A stretch of DNA of 39,329 nucleotides from Candidatus Omnitrophota bacterium. Its GTDB lineage: Bacteria; Omnitrophota; Gorgyraeia; Gygaellales; Profunditerraquicolaceae. The position numbers were made by a program, and so were the translations under genes. The notes beneath the pieces are model-generated. The model ran no database searches and was not told the origin of the DNA. It saw only the letters and a list, made by a program, of their open reading frames with translations. The DNA lies in contig JAPLLZ010000028.1 in the NCBI GenBank assembly GCA_026387265.1, forward strand, positions 5,009 to 44,337, written 5' to 3'. Position 1 is the stretch's first letter, and each line of letters starts with the position of its first letter. This document shows positions 4,986 to 25,545 of this stretch, piece after piece.

Positions 4986-5763
4986 TTAATCTTTCTACAA
5001 ATTTACTGACCACTTGTACCAAATTACGCTTTCCCATGTTTTCTTTAATTTTAGCGACAATTGCACTACCGATAATTGCCCCATCAGCTATTCTTTGCAC
5101 CTCTTTGACCTGTCGGGCAGAAGAAATACCAAACCCAACACAAACCGGCTTAGTCGTTAATTTCTTAATTATAGACAACTTGGTTTTTAGGTCACTAGCC
5201 AATTCTTTCCGGCTGCCGGTTACTCCGGTTAAAGAAACATAATAGATAAAACCACGGGCAATTTTTGATACGGTTTTAATCCGCGCTACAGAGCTAGTCG
5301 GTGCCACAAAACAAATATTGGCCAGGCCTTTTTGATTTGCATAATGTGTAAATTTCCTAGCTTCCTCATATGGTAAATCCGGGATAATTACCCCATCCAC
5401 ACCAGCAGCCACAGCTTTATCCACAAAAAATCTTTCTCCAATACAAAAAACCGGGTTGTAATAAGTCATCAGGCAAATCGGCAAATTAGTAGATCGGCGC
5501 AGGCGCTTCACTAAATCTAAAATCTTAAGTATATTAATTCCCTTGCTTAGAGCATACCCTGAAGCTTCTTGAATTATCGGCCCATCAGCCAGCGGCTCAG
5601 AAAAAGGCACGCCTAACTCAATTATATCTACTCCGCTTTTCTCTAACGCAATAACCAGCTTAACGGTAGTGGATAAATCCGGATAACCAGCGGTAATAAA
5701 AGCAATGAAAGCTTTTTTATTCTGTTTTTTAAGTTGAATAAATTTTCTATCAATACGATTCAT
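4978..5763 (-). CDS. trpA: Tryptophan synthase alpha chain
   Basis: Cleaves indole-3-glycerol phosphate to indole and glyceraldehyde 3-phosphate, passing indole to TrpB. The TIM barrel has catalytic Glu49 ([11 protein letters not shown]) and Asp60 (LADGP), plus the C-terminal phosphate-binding GFGISS and GAIIGSAIV. The ORF is open to 5799, but ATG at 5763 is preferred. It gives 261 residues with the standard numbering of catalytic residues, has AAGGA six bases upstream, and overlaps the trpB stop by 14 bases. It is last of the trp genes and overlaps the M16 protease. Confidence 0.95.
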
Positions 5764-6847
5764 GCAGATCCTTATCTCCTCTTCCAGAAAGGCAAACAAT
5801 AACTAAAGAATTTTTCTTAATTGTTTTCCTGGCTTTCTTTAAATAAGCAATGGCATGGGCAGATTCCAAGGCTGGAATAATTCCTTCAATCAAAGATAAT
5901 AACTTAAATCCATCCAATGCTTCTTGATCAGTAATCGACACATACTTAGCCCTGCCAATCTGCTGATAATAAGCATGCTCCGGGCCAACCCCTGGATAAT
6001 CTAGGCCGGCAGCAACCGAATGTGCATTTTTAATCTGGCCGAATTGATCTTCCAGAATTTTTGATTTAGAACCATGCAAAACGCCGGATGCACCAGCACC
6101 CAGACTTGCAGAATGTTTACCTGAAGCCAGACCTAACCCGGCAGCCTCAACTCCGATCATCTTTACATTTTTATCATTAAAAAAAGGGTAAAATAAACCA
6201 ATAGCATTACTACCACCGCCAACACAAGCCACCAGATAATCCGGCAGTCGTTTTTCCTTTTTTAATATCTGCTTCCTAGCCTCTTTGCCAATTACGCTTT
6301 GAAAATTACGTACCATTTCCGGATACGGATGCGGGCCGGCAGCAGTACCGATAACATAATGCGTATTGCGCACATTGGTTACCCAATCCCGTAAAGCTTG
6401 CGTCATCGCATCTTTTAAAGTTTGCGTGCCGGTTCCAACGCTAATCACGTTAGCTCCCAGCAGTTTCATCCGCATTACATTTAAAGCCTGGCGATGAATA
6501 TCTTCTTGGCCCATATAAATATCGCAACTTAAACCAAATAACGCCGCTACCGTAGCTGTAGCCACTCCATGCTGTCCTGCGCCGGTTTCAGCAATTAAAC
6601 GTTTCTTACCCATCCTAACCGCTAAAATTACCTGAGCTAAAGTATTATTAATTTTATGTGCGCCGGTATGCAGAAGATCTTCTCTTTTTAAATAAATCTT
6701 CGCCAGATAATAATTTAGATCCCTGATAAATTTCTTATCATGTTTAGCCCGGGCGTACTCTTTAGCTAATTCATCCAAAGCGTAAATCAGGGTCTCCGGT
6801 ACAAACCTTCCGCCGAAATCCCCAAAATGACCAGTTTTATCCGGCAT
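5750..6847 (-). CDS. trpB: Tryptophan synthase beta chain, with an apparent internal deletion
   Basis: PLP enzyme that condenses indole with serine. Visible family motifs are [15 protein letters not shown] at the N-terminus, Lys65 in HTGAHKINN (the PLP lysine), [28 protein letters not shown] and the C-terminal SGRGDKD. ATG at 6847 is chosen; an ATG at 6895 is in frame but overlaps the upstream gene and adds residues foreign to the family. The protein is 365 residues, about 22-30 short. The universal GRPTPL segment and following helix, normally just before KIYLKRED, are absent: YYL (residue 48) runs straight into AKIYLKRED. The frame is kept. It may be inactive, or the assembly may be at fault. 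Confidence 0.92.
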
Positions 6848-6869
6848 TTTATTCCGTATTGAATATCTT

Positions 6870-7232
6870 TTATGAAGCAGGATAGATTTTTTCATAGTCT
6901 TTTAGTGAACCATTGTTTAAAAAATCCTTAAAAATTTGGTAACCCTGCCCTAAATCATCAAACATCCCCTGCATATTTCCCAGAGGATTAAAAGGCAGAC
7001 TAATCCGCGGCAGGTTGGCCCGAATAGCCATAATTTTATACATCGCCGCATCAAGCATAAAAGAAGACAGATAAATAAGAATACCACAAATTAAAACAAA
7101 TACGCCTAAACTAGTAAGGCAGCCGAATAGACACCGCATCCCCTTGCTCTTCTTCTTTAAAAACTCGCCGCAATACCGGCATTTTACAGCCTCATCCTGA
7201 ATCTCTTCTGCGCAAAACGGGCATTTTTTCAT
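6870..7232 (-). CDS. Membrane-anchored zinc-ribbon protein of unknown function
   Basis: 120 residues. An N-terminal double-Cys ribbon ([20 protein letters not shown], residues 4-23) is followed by lysines, a single membrane helix at about 34-58 ([20 protein letters not shown]), and about 60 further residues with no recognised domain. By the positive-inside rule the ribbon is probably cytoplasmic. Such ribbons head many uncharacterised bacterial proteins. The chosen ATG at 7232 is two bases after the trpF stop; a TTG at 7238 is also possible. It interrupts the trp cluster between trpF and trpB. I see no known role in tryptophan synthesis. Confidence 0.8.
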
Positions 7233-9722: not shown

Positions 9723-10284
9723 TTAATCTAATAAAATTATCCAGTATTGCTTTACCGCTCTTGGTCAAAATAGATTCCGGATGGAACTGCACCCCCCAAA
9801 GAGGGTATTTTTTGTGTTTTAGCCCCATAATTTCAGACTCGGATGTCCAAGCAGTAATCTCCAGGCAATCCGGTAAGCTCTTTTTTTCCACCAATAAAGA
9901 ATGGTAGCGTGTAGCCAAGAATGGGTTAGAAATATTTTTAAAAATATCTTTTTTATTATGATAAATTTTAGAAGTTTTGCCGTGCATTAGCCTCTTGGCT
10001 TGCACGATTTTTCCGCCAAAACAATAACCAATCGCCTGATGCCCCAGGCAAACCCCCAAGATCGGAACCTTTCCGCAGAACTCTTTAATTACTGAGCAAG
10101 AAATTCCGGCATCTTCCGGTCTTCCGGGCCCCGGAGAAATAACTATTCTTTGCGGATTAAACTTCTTAATCCCCTCTAGAGTAATCGCATCATTACGGTA
10201 AACCTTAACCACCTGGCCTAATTCTCCTAAATATTGCACTAGATTATACGTAAATGAATCATAGTTATCAATCATTAAAATCAT
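9715..10284 (-). CDS. trpG: Anthranilate synthase glutamine amidotransferase subunit
   Basis: Class I glutamine amidotransferase that supplies ammonia to anthranilate synthase component I. The triad is visible: nucleophile Cys79 in [13 protein letters not shown], then His168 and Glu170 in VQFHPES. The oxyanion-strand motif [11 protein letters not shown] is near 50-60. ATG at 10284 shares ATGA with the murA stop and has GGAGA eight bases upstream; the ORF opens upstream at 10299 but the added residues are not family-like. The partner TrpE is not in this window. PabA is a close alternative, and some TrpG proteins serve both pathways, but the trp context favours TrpG. Confidence 0.93.
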
Positions 10285-11501
10285 TCTTTTTCTCTCCAAA
10301 CTTTAGCGCCCAAATTAATCAGTTTTTGTTCAATGAATTCATACCCGCGCTCTAAATGATAAATCCTAGAAATTGATGTCTTGCCGCAAGCCGCTAAACC
10401 AGCAAGCACTAAACCGGCAGAAGCACGCAAATCAGACGCCATTACCGGAGCACCGGATTGGATATGCGCACCCATACGATTAAGTTCAGCTACATGCATA
10501 AACCTGTCCGGATAAATCTTTTCGGTAATTACGCTAATCCCGCCGGTAACCGACATCAGGCTCATCATCTGCGCCTGCATATCTGTAGGAAATCCCGGAT
10601 ATGGCAGAGTAGTTATATTTACCGACCTTAATTTTCTATTCCCTTTAACCCGTAAAGCTCCATCAGTCCGTTCAATATGCGCGCCCGCCTCACTTAGTTT
10701 ATCAATCAAAGCCCCCAAATGCTGATATTGCACATTTCTAACTAAAACATCTCCTCCGGTAATCAGTGCGGCTAAAATTAATGTTCCTGCCTCGATACGA
10801 TCAGGAATTATTGAATGCGTGGCACCATGCAAATGTTTTACTCCTTCAATTTCAATTACCGGTGTACCATGCCCCTTAATTTTTGCGCCCATTTTAATCA
10901 AAAATTCCGCCAAGTCGGCTACTTCCGGCTCACAAGCTGCCGATTCAATCACTGTTTTACCGGATGCTAATACCGCCGCCATCATTACGTTATCCGTAGC
11001 TAGAACTGATGAACCATAAACTCCGCCTAGGTAAATGTAGGTCCCGCGTAACTTACTTGTCTTGGCAATCACATAACCTGAATCAATACTGATATCAGCG
11101 CCTAAAGCCCGGATGCCTTTAAGGTGTAAATCAACCGGCCGTACGCCAATAACACAGCCACCGGGAAGTGAAACTTTAGCTTTTTTTAATTTGCCTAAAA
11201 GCGGCCCCAAAACACAAAATGAAGCACGCATGGTTGAAACTAATTTATATTCAGCAATATAATTTGAAGTTTTACCGGCAGTAATACTAACCCTACCCTT
11301 ATCAAACTCCGCAATTTTCCCTAACGCACGCAAAATCTTAAGCATACTGTTGGTGTCGCGTAAATTCGGCACGCCCTTAATTACACAAGGTTCATCCGTA
11401 AGCAAAGTTGCAGCCAATATTGGTAACACGGCGTTTTTGGCTCCGGAAACGGTAACCTCTCCTTTTAATTTTACTCCGCCCTCAATAATTAATTTATCCA
11501 T
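10281..11501 (-). CDS. murA: UDP-N-acetylglucosamine 1-carboxyvinyltransferase, with an apparent internal deletion
   Basis: First committed step of peptidoglycan synthesis, using PEP. The two-lobed EPT fold is recognisable: [20 protein letters not shown] at the N-terminus, the active-site loop [13 protein letters not shown] with Cys116 (the fosfomycin-sensitive cysteine form), and [13 protein letters not shown] and IYHLERGYE near the C-terminus. At residue 348 RMGAHIQ joins SGAPVMASD directly. Family members carry about 16 more residues here, a beta hairpin of the type EGNTAIVTGVEKL. The 406-residue length is short by that amount and the frame is intact. ATG has GGAG nine bases upstream. It is fused by overlap to trpG. 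Confidence 0.95.
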
Positions 11502-20742: not shown

Positions 20743-22278
20743 TTATATTATCGCATCCATCGTTAACGCCGGATGCTCTACCTTCTTTAGAAAAACCAAT
20801 AATTCTTCCAAAGTAGTAGCCACAGATTCATCAGCAATCTTATCTAATAAACCATCCTGGCCAATCTCCTGAATTCTGGATTTTAACTTATCTCCTAAAA
20901 TTTCCTTAAGTTCCTTAGGCATCCAAACGACTCTGGCTAATCCGCCTTCAGCAGAAATGAACTTTTTACTTAAAATATATAATTTACCCACCCCGAGAAA
21001 ACCCGGAGTCTGTACTCCGCCTCCGACTGATCCGGCTAAAGTTGTAAAACTCATCCCCGAAGGAGTACTCCCAACATAATCACGATGCACTAGCATTACC
21101 CCGTTAGCTTCAGGCACAATGGCCACAATACACTCAAAACATCCGCATGATGATTGCGGCCCGTCCATTAATGAATACATACTTACTGCCTCAATAGTCT
21201 GATTGGACTTCTGCTGCACAAATGTATTTATATTATCCCATTGGCCAAGCCGGCCGTCTAAAAGATTACCTTTGAGAATCGGCTGATTAGGACCGGTAGG
21301 AATAATTTCAAAAGAAGCTTTAGCATCTAACCAGGAATACGCTCCGCACAAACCTAAGCGCTCCGGAGTAACCACGCAAACATGGTTAGGAGCAAAAGAT
21401 TGGCACAATAAACAGGAATAAAATGTATCTACGCTTTCGTCAGTCATACCGGCTAAACGTTCATCACGCTGATTATAAGTTTGCTGAGCTTGACTTGAAA
21501 TTCTAGACACATCATCCTGAGTGGTATAAAGTTTGACCTGCACTTTATCCACAATAGCGCTATATTCCGCATGCAACATCGCATGTAAAATGACTCCTAG
21601 ATGTTTTAGCCTAAAACCTTTGCCATATGCATCTTTAGAGATCCTGATCCAAACCATATCGCGCTGGCCCATATGCATCAGGCCCATACAATAGTTAACA
21701 AAACGATGGATCTGCCTTTCCAGTATCGGCTCGAAATCTTTTTGCATTTTGCGCCCAAAAACATCTACGACAATTGCCAAAGGTAAAGATTTGCTCCCGG
21801 CAGGTAACTGATCAATAGCCGGGCCAATTAATTCTACACTACCATCAGTAATGCTGGCTTCATCACCAGAACTTAAAAATTCAATCACAGCTGACGCCTT
21901 ACCTCCAAATTCAACAGCCAACTGTTCCCTACGTACACGCTCACCTTCAAATGCCGCAGCATACGGCACAGGCACAGCCACCTGTGACATTTTAACTTTA
22001 ATCCCGCGTGTCAAAATACATTTAGAAGGTAACTTAGCATAATCTTTCTCAGTAACTAAAGCTTCAAACAGAGTCGTATCAATCTTACCTAATTGTGGTA
22101 CCTCTAAATCTGTAATTATCGGCAGGCCGAAAGCCAAAGCCCCCAAACCTGTAGCCACTAAAAGTTCATCTACATGGCTAAGCAGAAGAATAAATGCTGG
22201 AACGCGATTACGGATATAATCGGAGATCTCTTTCCATTGCCCGGGCTTATTTCCGCCGTAGATTAAAGGAGCGCGCAC
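20743..22278 (-). CDS. acsB: Acetyl-CoA synthase (CODH/ACS beta), C-terminal piece with the A-cluster
   Basis: Catalytic part of acetyl-CoA synthase, which joins CO, a corrinoid-bound methyl group and CoA. All A-cluster ligands are present: Cys289, Cys292, Cys301 and Cys311 in FYSCLLCQSFAPNHVC plus LGLCGA (the 4Fe-4S cluster and bridging Cys), and Cys378-Gly379-Cys380 in SSCGCFEC (the distal nickel). 511 residues from GTG 22278, but the same frame is open back to 22338 and its upstream residues (YIVPLGDDYLSAIYAVNFAV) are clearly AcsB sequence. No ATG, GTG or TTG and no good ribosome site exists in that stretch. It is therefore the downstream part of a gene whose 5' part is 22320-23219 in another frame. 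Confidence 0.93.
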   Translation of the reverse strand: MRAPLIYGGNKPGQWKEISDYIRNRVPAFILLLSHVDELLVATGLGALAFGLPIITDLEVPQLGKIDTTLFEALVTEKDYAKLPSKCILTRGIKVKMSQVAVPVPYAAAFEGERVRREQLAVEFGGKASAVIEFLSSGDEASITDGSVELIGPAIDQLPAGSKSLPLAIVVDVFGRKMQKDFEPILERQIHRFVNYCMGLMHMGQRDMVWIRISKDAYGKGFRLKHLGVILHAMLHAEYSAIVDKVQVKLYTTQDDVSRISSQAQQTYNQRDERLAGMTDESVDTFYSCLLCQSFAPNHVCVVTPERLGLCGAYSWLDAKASFEIIPTGPNQPILKGNLLDGRLGQWDNINTFVQQKSNQTIEAVSMYSLMDGPQSSCGCFECIVAIVPEANGVMLVHRDYVGSTPSGMSFTTLAGSVGGGVQTPGFLGVGKLYILSKKFISAEGGLARVVWMPKELKEILGDKLKSRIQEIGQDGLLDKIADESVATTLEELLVFLKKVEHPALTMDAII

Positions 22279-22319
22279 CGCAAAGTTAACCGCATAAATT
22301 GCTGAAAGATAATCATCTC

Positions 22320-23219
22320 CTAAGGGAACAATATACTTTTAGACTGAAAATCTCGAATCAACTGCACAGCCGACTGTTCATCTTTAGCCGGACCCAAGAT
22401 GACCGCAATACCGGCAATCCTGCCATCAACCAATTGCAATCCTAGTGACCGTAAAATTTTATCCGGAATAAAACCAATCCCCTCTTTCGGATGTTCTTGA
22501 TTTAACACAGCCAAAACAGCGAGAATTTCTTCACAAATTAAAACTGCCACCCCTTGGTTTAATAAACCATCCGCAGAGTTAATCATCAAACCACTAGAAG
22601 CAGCCTGATTAACGGCCAAAGCCTCAGCTTGAACAAAAGCTGCCCGGCAATCCTGCAGATTTTTTACTTCAATATTCAACAGGGCATAAATTAAAGGCAG
22701 GTAATAGTTTGTTTCCGGAAATTCTATTTTTGCATCAGGGCCTTTTTGATTTATTGCATTTTCTAATGACTGGCGCGTAAGATTTAATACGCCCTGCGTT
22801 CCTTTTGTCCCTAATTCCGCCAATAGTTGAGGCAACTGCCCTGGCTTAACTTGCTCACTAGAAGAATCCGGCATGGACTTATCTACAAACACAACCAAAC
22901 ATACCCCAACAGCTTTCCCATCTTTAAATTTAACCGCTTCAGCCCTGCCCTCGCCGACAATCTCCTGAATTGAGCTATTAATAATTTGAACACTTTCAGG
23001 CAACTGCCCGCTAAATCCTAGATTACTGACCACTTTAATACCAACTTTATATTTCTCAGCAATTAATTGTGCTATTTTAAATACTGCTCCTGTAGGCCCA
23101 TCAACGCAAACAGTATCAACAATTAAATAATCATCTAATTTTTTAAGGTCATCTTCCGAACTGATAAGTATAACCCCTTTTTTTCTTGCTCCGGGTATCT
23201 GCGGTAAGTTTAGTGCCAT
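22320..23219 (-). CDS. acsB: Acetyl-CoA synthase N-terminal domain with an unusual Rossmann-like extension (5' part of split acsB)
   Basis: 299 residues. From about residue 125 onward it matches domain 1 of bacterial AcsB, the CODH-contacting part: GPDAKIEFPETNYYLPLIYA and GFIPDKILRSLGLQLVDG, then IAVILGPAKDE. It ends at a TAG (22320) where AcsB should continue, and the continuation is found one frame away. Residues about 15-115 are not normal AcsB. They resemble a degenerate NAD-binding fold of disulfide-oxidoreductase type (IVDTVCVDGPTGAV, IQEIVGEGRAEAVKFKDGK), which I infer with low confidence. GAGG lies 10 bases before the ATG. The metF-side gap is 37 bases. Confidence 0.85.
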   Translation of the reverse strand: MALNLPQIPGARKKGVILISSEDDLKKLDDYLIVDTVCVDGPTGAVFKIAQLIAEKYKVGIKVVSNLGFSGQLPESVQIINSSIQEIVGEGRAEAVKFKDGKAVGVCLVVFVDKSMPDSSSEQVKPGQLPQLLAELGTKGTQGVLNLTRQSLENAINQKGPDAKIEFPETNYYLPLIYALLNIEVKNLQDCRAAFVQAEALAVNQAASSGLMINSADGLLNQGVAVLICEEILAVLAVLNQEHPKEGIGFIPDKILRSLGLQLVDGRIAGIAVILGPAKDEQSAVQLIRDFQSKSILFP

Positions 23220-23256: not shown

Positions 23257-24126
23257 TTATAATCCGCTCGCTTCTAAGACCTGCGGGACAATTTTATCCC
23301 AACCAATAGACATAATATGAATCCCCTGGCACATCGGTTTTAATTGCCTGATTAAACGACTGGCAATTTTTATGGAAGTAGCCACCTTGTCCTTGCAAGA
23401 ATCCATCTCCGCAATTAACTCTTGCGGAACAGAAATACCGGCAACATGCTTATTCATATATCTGGCCATAGCTGCCGATTTTAACAAAACAATACCCGCC
23501 ATAACCGGAACTTTAAAATTTTTAACCTGAGAGATAAAATTCTCAAAAGTCTTTACATCAAAAACTGCCTGGGTCTGAAAAAATTCAGCACCTGCGGAAA
23601 TTTTTTTCTCCATTTTCATAATCTGCGGAGCCAATGGGTCTGAACCGGGATTAACCACTGCGCCAATACAAAATACGGGCGGATTCCCTTCTAATTTATG
23701 GCCCTGCATATCAAAGCCGGTCTCCAATTTTCTAGCTACCTGCAACAATTGCACCGAGTCTAAATCAAACACCGGTTTGGCCTGCGGATGATCACCTAAG
23801 CTTGGGTGATCTCCGGTAGCAATCAAGATATTCTGAATTCCCAAGGCTGCAGCAGACAATAAATCTGATTGTAAGGCCAGGCGATTACGGTCGCGGCAGG
23901 TTAACTGATAAATCGGCTCAAAACCCTTTTGTTTAAGCAAATAACTTACGGTTAAGGACCCTAAACGCATTACTGAACTCTGTAAATCCGTAACATTAAT
24001 CGCATCGACTTTATTACGGATAAGTTCAGCATCTTCCAATAATCTTTCAGCATGCATGCCTTTTTCCGGGCCGACTTCCGAAGTAAGTAAAAATTTACCT
24101 GCTTGAACTTTTTCTTTAAATGTCAT
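23257..24126 (-). CDS. metF: 5,10-methylenetetrahydrofolate reductase
   Basis: Reduces methylene-THF to methyl-THF, the methyl donor for acetyl-CoA synthase or methionine. 289 residues, a TIM barrel of MTHFR type: LTSEVGPEKG near the N-terminus (catalytic Glu region), INVTDLQSSVMRLGSL, QLTCRDRNRLALQSDLL, and NILIATGDHPSLGDHP for FAD binding. Later it has KISAGAEFFQTQAVFD and PVMAGIVLL. The zinc partner MetV seen in acetogens is not in the window. Its place between folD and acsB suggests service in the Wood-Ljungdahl methyl branch. Confidence 0.93.
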   Translation of the reverse strand: MTFKEKVQAGKFLLTSEVGPEKGMHAERLLEDAELIRNKVDAINVTDLQSSVMRLGSLTVSYLLKQKGFEPIYQLTCRDRNRLALQSDLLSAAALGIQNILIATGDHPSLGDHPQAKPVFDLDSVQLLQVARKLETGFDMQGHKLEGNPPVFCIGAVVNPGSDPLAPQIMKMEKKISAGAEFFQTQAVFDVKTFENFISQVKNFKVPVMAGIVLLKSAAMARYMNKHVAGISVPQELIAEMDSCKDKVATSIKIASRLIRQLKPMCQGIHIMSIGWDKIVPQVLEASGL

Positions 24127-24149
24127 TTCTAAACAAAATTAAAAATAGT

Positions 24150-25007
24150 TTATGATTTTGTAGACTGCTGCGCTTTAGCGACTTCCACTAAATTACGCAT
24201 TAAGATGGCCACAGTTAATGGCCCCACTCCTCCCGGCACAGGAGTAATATAGGCAGCGCGCTTTGCGGCTGATTCAAATTCAATATCACCGACAATTTTA
24301 TCATTTAAATGGTTTATGCCTACATCTACAACCACGGCACCTTCCTTTATCCATTCGCCTTTAATCAAACCGGCCTGGCCAACCGCGACAATCAAAACTT
24401 CTGCTCTTTTTACATGATCTTCTAACTTACCGGCTTTGCTAGTAGCAATATGGCAAACTGTCACTGTAGCAAATTTTTCCAACAAAAGCATCGCCAATGG
24501 TTTGCCCACGATTTCGCTATGTCCAACAATTACCACTTCTTTCCCATACAAATCTAGGCCGATAGAATCCAGTAATTCCATTACAGCATTAGCTGTGCAA
24601 GCCGCAATCCTGGCTTTGCCGAAAAGAACTTTTCCAATATTGGTCGGATGCATCCCTTCGACATCTTTATTGGGCTGGATAAACTCACATATCTTCATAT
24701 AATCAATATCTGGCGGAAGGGGAACCTGAACGATAATACCATTCACCGAAGTATCAGCATTTAACTTAAGCACAAAATCAATCAACTGATCCTGGGAAAT
24801 ATTCTGCTCCAACTGATACAGTTTATAGGTTATCCCCAAACTCTGCGCAACCTTAGCCTGAATCTTGACATAAGCCAAAGCACTGGGATTATCTCCTACT
24901 AAAATACTAGCCAGAACCGGAGCCTGTCTTAAACTCAGCACACTGTTTTTAACCTTCTCTTTAATCTTATCAGCGACAATTTTACCTTCTAATAACTTTG
25001 CCAACAT
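24150..25007 (-). CDS. folD: Bifunctional methylene-THF dehydrogenase / methenyl-THF cyclohydrolase
   Basis: 285 residues, normal. Folate-site motifs are ALAYVKIQAKVAQSLGI with the catalytic lysine near residue 54, and GIIVQVPLPPDID. The NAD(P)-binding domain has EVVIVGHSEIVGKPLAMLLL, and the C-terminus carries the signature PVPGGVGPLTVAILM. The ATG lies inside the end of fchA, a 26-base overlap. FolD already has cyclohydrolase activity, so having fchA next door is partly redundant, as in many acetogens. Confidence 0.96.
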   Translation of the reverse strand: MLAKLLEGKIVADKIKEKVKNSVLSLRQAPVLASILVGDNPSALAYVKIQAKVAQSLGITYKLYQLEQNISQDQLIDFVLKLNADTSVNGIIVQVPLPPDIDYMKICEFIQPNKDVEGMHPTNIGKVLFGKARIAACTANAVMELLDSIGLDLYGKEVVIVGHSEIVGKPLAMLLLEKFATVTVCHIATSKAGKLEDHVKRAEVLIVAVGQAGLIKGEWIKEGAVVVDVGINHLNDKIVGDIEFESAAKRAAYITPVPGGVGPLTVAILMRNLVEVAKAQQSTKS

Positions 25008-25545
25008 TATCCTCCGTGTCCTTACGAATCTTTAGAACTATTTTTTGCATCTGCTTTAGTTCTTTTATAATTTTACCAGTACGCTTGCTATCAGCTAAGC
25101 TTTTTAGATTAATCTCTACATTAAAACAAGCGCAAACAAAAGCTGACTCCAATAAAACAGCAGCTACTGCCACATCGCTGATTAAATTAATATTACCCTT
25201 CTTGACTAACGACGGGCATAATTGCTGCGCCTGGCAACAAAGTTTGGCCAAGCGCAAAGGTACCGCCAGCATCTTTGCAGCATCCTTGCTTTGATAAGCC
25301 AACACATCTAAATCCACCAAGTCCAGAAAATATTTTCTTAATCTTTCAGATTTAGTTAATATTGCCTTTAACTCTTTCGTAAAGGCAGCATACTTGGGCT
25401 TGCCTAAGGTAAAATTAACTACCATACTCACTAAACCGGCAGCTAAAGCAGCATTTAAAGCCGCAGCTGATCCGCCTCCCGGAGCAGGCAGCCTGGCAGC
25501 AAGATCATTTAAATATTTAGTTAGGCTTTGATTTTTATATTTCAT
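24982..25545 (-). CDS. fchA: Methenyltetrahydrofolate cyclohydrolase / FTCD_C family protein
   Basis: Helical formiminotransferase-cyclodeaminase C-terminal family; in acetogens FchA acts as methenyl-THF cyclohydrolase. 187 residues. The N-terminal signature LPAPGGGSAAALNAALAAGL and the C-terminal NINLISDVAVAAVLLESAFV and NVEINLKSL are clear. In the middle LDVLAYQS runs directly into KDAAKMLAVPL; most relatives have about 20 more residues here (a VMxAYxLPK-type segment), so the protein is short by that amount. The frame is intact. ATG two bases behind the yraN stop; overlaps folD. Confidence 0.88.
   Translation of the reverse strand: MKYKNQSLTKYLNDLAARLPAPGGGSAAALNAALAAGLVSMVVNFTLGKPKYAAFTKELKAILTKSERLRKYFLDLVDLDVLAYQSKDAAKMLAVPLRLAKLCCQAQQLCPSLVKKGNINLISDVAVAAVLLESAFVCACFNVEINLKSLADSKRTGKIIKELKQMQKIVLKIRKDTEDNVGKVIRR

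Follow-up and report, generated by a model that had tools for sequence, protein, structure and literature searches.

Two overlapping acsB frames and a missing segment

The window, a stretch of 39,329 nucleotides from a Candidatus Omnitrophota genome (G000; 1.56 Mb in 73 contigs, 87.5% complete), carries on its minus strand the acetyl-CoA synthase (ACS) gene acsB in two pieces whose frames are offset by one in the ORF list. The features at this locus are the following:

20743..22338, minus strand: acsB 3' part, an open frame of 531 aa with the remainder of domain 1, domains 2 and 3 and all A-cluster cysteines
22320..23219, minus strand: acsB 5' part, 299 aa, with its TAG at 22320 (ORF list)
22333..22336, minus strand: junction of the 88-bp deletion, with TAT at 22333-22335 common to both flanks (DNA alignment with L002-L020)
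22830..23219, minus strand: N-terminal extension of AcsB, ~130 aa, NAD-domain remnant of a CODH-linked FAD/NAD(P) oxidoreductase (FNOR)
23257..25545, minus strand: metF, folD and fchA, intact and directly upstream of acsB (ORF list, Pfam; unbroken in comparison with relatives)

The 5' ORF terminates in ...LIRDFQSKSILFP* at 22320, and the continuation of AcsB, YIVPLGDDYLSAIYAVNFAVRAP, is open from 22338 in the other frame, so that the two overlap by 19 bases. These positions and the overlap, as given in an earlier sequence-only reading, are borne out by the ORF list, and the break by frame change that it described is also evident in the DNA alignment with relatives. That reading put the 5' part at about 174 residues, a figure that falls short of the actual 299 aa because AcsB carries here ~130 extra N-terminal residues. 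Both pieces are AcsB by sequence, each separately matching the family models NF040764 and NF007078: in the 5' part these profiles match residues 133-297, with Pfam CODH_A_N at residues 150-236, and the 3' part gives a full-length match to Moorella AcsB (E about 1e-180). The 3' frame encodes the A-cluster cysteines of domain 3 (YSCLLC...HVC...GLC and SCGC), which are invariant in alignment A1. The protein thus resembles the bacterial AcsB, or CODH/ACS alpha subunit, of Moorella (1OAO) and C. autoethanogenum (6YTT) in domains 1-3 and in all A-cluster cysteines, but differs from it by the 88-bp loss in domain 1, the ~130-aa N-terminal extension and the want of a CODH partner.

The extent of the loss was determined by aligning the DNA with that of L002-L020, 17 relatives from the same genus and one from the same family; the alignment contains a single clean gap of 88 bp, i.e., 29 codons plus one base, and hence more than the ~22 missing codons first estimated. 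Identical against every relative compared, this gap is judged from the alignment to exceed chance. The missing bases correspond to I304-N332 of the intact L031 ortholog and the last base of codon 303, and codons 304-332 span a strand (304-309) and a helix (317-323) of ACS domain 1 in the predicted L031 model (pLDDT 75.7, pTM 0.44), in which domain packing is unsure. There are no large repeats at the junction, where the 3-bp TAT alone is shared. With 88 bp gone and the frame altered, the window holds no single continuous frame with the complete domain 1 of a functional AcsB.

Could the two frames nevertheless yield an enzyme? A programmed frameshift joining them would make use of the 19-base overlap, but a single shift would give a product still short of the 29 conserved residues found in every relative compared, and the relatives have a continuous frame without such a site, which makes this explanation exceedingly improbable. 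A natural split enzyme, with AcsB made as two polypeptides and the 3' part resembling archaeal CdhC, which is devoid of domain 1, is highly improbable as well. The CdhC family model TIGR00316 does match the 3' frame, which contains the whole A-cluster, a truncated ACS lacking domain 1 (3git) folds alone, and domain 1 may matter less where there is no CODH. However, the 3' part has neither a start nor a ribosome site: as already remarked in the sequence-only reading, no plausible restart exists, since no Shine-Dalgarno sequence precedes the in-frame GTG at 22278 and an in-frame ATG first occurs at 21990. No minus-strand promoter site was found for the 3' part either, the 29 lost residues are conserved and comprise one strand and one helix within domain 1, and no relative has the split.

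This last point follows from the other 26 genomes of the genus. A continuous acsB frame of 843-891 aa is present in 19 of them, acsB is cut in four (G002, G022, G024 and G026) by breaks that look like contig ends, and the remaining three, bins 74-77% complete, have no match. Thus, the same split in relatives, which the sequence-only reading had entertained, was not found in any same-genus genome, and the second intact acsB that it proposed to look for was searched for in G000 and is not present. The window protein clusters with those of its relatives in the AcsB tree. The absence of acsB from G025 and G032 was not accepted as real loss because the neighboring polA is also missing from both bins. 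Elsewhere, a scaffold join (NNNNN) near 5206-5240 interrupts acsB of L088, which comes from a Lake Pavin MAG, and in L102 (4732-6908; a Nitrospirota MAG) acsB appears as two overlapping ORFs (127 and 643 aa), which may stem from a frameshift or from misassembly.

An oxidoreductase remnant in a genus without CODH

The N-terminal extension occurs in the window and in L031-L066, and in the window's genus ~130 aa are fused to AcsB. It has no Pfam match, and its reading as a new domain was discarded in favor of a degraded FNOR fragment on three grounds: by tblastn it is related to the oxidoreductase genes that lie upstream of acsB in relatives (alignment A4), it matches FNOR in a profile-profile comparison (97.5% probability, E 6.7e-12), and in structure comparison its predicted model (pLDDT 80) matches flavoprotein reductases. 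The dinucleotide-binding glycine motif expected of a FAD/NAD oxidoreductase is not intact in the extension, where LGGG of FNOR has become DGPT or DGPA, and NAD(P)H binding is therefore doubtful. In CODH-bearing relatives acsB is preceded by genes for CODH, a CooF-like ferredoxin and the 421-aa FAD/NAD oxidoreductase, in that order, in keeping with the known association of CODH and FNOR genes (PMC6344411); of that cluster the window's genus retains only the FNOR fragment, fused to AcsB. Members of the CODH-less clade have a shorter oxidoreductase of about 290-305 aa, and whole oxidoreductase-AcsB fusions are found in L049 and L053 (1046 and 1035 aa). In a quick tree several changes of fusion state are needed, no fewer than 5 if counted by starred branches; fusion of the oxidoreductase to AcsB seems to have happened repeatedly, which is to be confirmed.

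No CODH scores over the TIGR01702 cut-off in G000 or in the 26 other genomes of the genus, and G000 thus lacks the catalytic subunit of a bifunctional CODH/ACS complex. A mere bin gap was dismissed as the reason, with 27 of 27 genomes devoid of the gene. Formate-THF ligase (Fhs; PF01268 over its cut-off) is likewise found in none of the 27. In contrast to these absences, acsB is present in 24 of the 27 genomes and the genes of the corrinoid iron-sulfur protein (CoFeSP) in all seven checked, and G000 retains acsBCDE (with acsB broken), acsV (with a gap), cooC, larB, metF, folD, fchA and SHMT. CODH-less partial pathways are already published for Omnitrophota: PMC10066038 describes a partial Wood-Ljungdahl pathway without AcsA/CooS in Ca. 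Velamenicoccus and 24 Omnitrophota species and proposes that CO feeds the carbonyl branch. The window's genus shares with that version the absence of AcsA/CooS; there, formate is described as entering the methyl branch, whereas here formate-THF ligase is missing too, and the passages of that paper considered here do not mention an N-terminal extension of AcsB. A second likeness, from PMC7005905 (citing Zhuang 2014), is Dehalococcoides mccartyi, which has AcsB and CoFeSP but no CODH and in which AcsB cleaves acetyl-CoA to a methyl group and CO. The window's genus has acsE and metF and lacks fhs, while Dehalococcoides shows the reverse.

A genus already without CODH and Fhs is a setting in which acsB itself could be lost, and a real, recent 88-bp deletion that inactivated the gene in the population, as part of an erosion of ACS, is the foremost rival to an artefact, though an unlikely one. 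Real losses occur in the same family: in G030 and G031, which represent two other genera, acsB is missing at the syntenic site (fchA-folD-metF-oxidoreductase-TPR-polA), and the arrangement there, metF-FNOR'-[no acsB]-TPR-polA, speaks for such a deletion. In these two genomes (L144 1219-2100 and L145 1117-2046, respectively) the shortened oxidoreductase adjoins metF, with acsB and CODH gone. Since it persists next to metF in their absence, it may act together with MetF independently of ACS.

Conservation of acsB and private deletions across the assembly

Outside the junction acsB shows no sign of decay. Its dN/dS against the nearest relatives is about 0.06, and only two private changes fall on 345 otherwise invariant ACS columns, which indicates strong constraint. 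The stops or relaxed selection of a pseudogene are thus not seen beyond the lesion, although a very recent lesion would look alike. This lack of decay and the intact frame in 19 same-genus genomes count against a real deletion. Decay of the whole pathway in G000 was also rejected, as acsC, cooC, acsD, acsE and larB are whole on contig C2. In acsV, by contrast, an in-frame gap of 132 bp removes 44 residues that the relatives used for comparison possess. In G014 (L146 3398-5026), acsV is without a ~100-residue middle domain owing to a 297-bp deletion that differs from the 132-bp one of G000, and cooC of the same locus ends in an odd repeat-like tail. These internal deletions of acsV, distinct in the two genomes, are compatible with genuine erosion of the pathway.

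The acsV gap raised the question whether the damage is confined to this pathway. Stretches of G000 were compared both ways with stretches of G006, G009, G014, G020 and G022, and a private deletion was counted where at least two reference genomes agreed and the lost segment was conserved. G000 has six private deletions in conserved protein segments in 101.4 kb and the five relatives together two in 344.6 kb, an excess in G000 with P = 0.0025 (conditional test). The six lesions are those of acsB (-88 bp), acsV (-132 bp, 44 aa), trpB (-66 bp, 22 aa), murA (-42 bp, 14 aa), a C-terminal protease (Ctp) gene (-57 bp, 19 aa) and pdxJ (-39 bp, 13 aa, plus an in-frame stop). Besides acsB, two lie in the window:

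10281..11501, minus strand: murA, without 14 invariant residues (REGPHAIVEGIKxL) near 10457 (comparison with relatives)
5750..6895, minus strand: trpB, without 22 conserved residues (EYAGRPTPLY...) near 6703 (comparison with relatives)

The losses outside the window (Ctp protease, acsV and pdxJ) are at L115 near 4078 and 11527 and at L153 near 6437; on contig C2 of G000 these three sites fall near 24077, 31526 and 46337. There is one copy of murA in G000, its lost block is kept in 21 of 21 other same-genus genomes examined, and the 14 residues are also contained in solved MurA structures. Two more candidate sites in G000, of 108 bp and 13 bp, have weaker support. The bases shared at the lesion junctions number 0-3, about chance level in our reading. 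Five of the six lengths are divisible by 3 (P about 0.018 if lengths were random), a proportion obtained with a search that detects in-frame gaps more readily than frame breaks. A different kind of gap concerns FolD, which in several species lacks a conserved 15-residue active-site loop; as the same gap is seen in G020 (L137 near 16472) and L039, and another form of it in L032/L034/L036, these gaps are probably real and inherited.

Origin of the break and its meaning

The break in acsB is probably an assembly artefact rather than a true loss of the enzyme, because private losses in conserved genes unrelated to acsB exceed in this assembly the rate of the relatives (6 in 101 kb versus 2 in 345 kb). 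When lesions of one kind strike unrelated, partly essential genes in an otherwise well-conserved sequence, the fault more likely lies with the assembly than with biology, and the joint loss of such segments from single-copy murA, trpB and pdxJ should be intolerable to a living cell, which counts against a real deletion. The segment is missing from this assembly only, and the excess of losses is genome-wide. Most likely the organism has one intact acsB of ~850 aa, from whose consensus 88 bp of ACS domain 1 were dropped, and short conserved pieces of murA, trpB, acsV, pdxJ and the Ctp protease gene were lost likewise, probably not in the cell but while the library was prepared, the reads were assembled or gaps were closed.

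Several observations stand against an artefact. The predominance of lengths divisible by 3 (five of six), by which most private deletions of G000 are in frame, could have been left by selection acting on real deletions. Against G006, G014 and G020, no other gene of the window has a frame break and the remaining sequence is free of small indel noise, so the window is not generally noisy. An overlap of 3 bp should be too short for a plain de Bruijn assembler to merge on, so the junction must come from the reads or from a gap closer. Finally, acsB has been genuinely lost elsewhere in the same family. The most far-reaching alternative is a stepwise loss of ACS in Omnitrophota following that of CODH and formate-THF ligase, in which the deletion would be real and acsV and acsB would erode first here, with sister genera devoid of acsB and the corrinoid protein but keeping the oxidoreductase remnant beside metF; this scenario is somewhat less probable still than the inactivating deletion as such. 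Of the three options left by the sequence-only reading, then, assembly error is the best supported, a real inactivating deletion comes second and the split enzyme finds poor support.

Taken at face value, the break would yield the claim that this lineage lost acetyl-CoA synthase. Because short conserved stretches of several genes are missing from the assembly, claims of gene loss based on it need read-level support. On the favored reading of the break as an assembly artefact, the intact protein would be a nickel acetyl-CoA synthase functioning without CODH, which would exchange methyl groups with CoFeSP and serve in acetyl-CoA cleavage or in the use of outside CO. A genus that keeps ACS, the corrinoid protein and the methyltransferase without CODH or Fhs, and in which AcsB is fused to what is left of the CODH-linked oxidoreductase, represents a natural case for the solo role of this enzyme.
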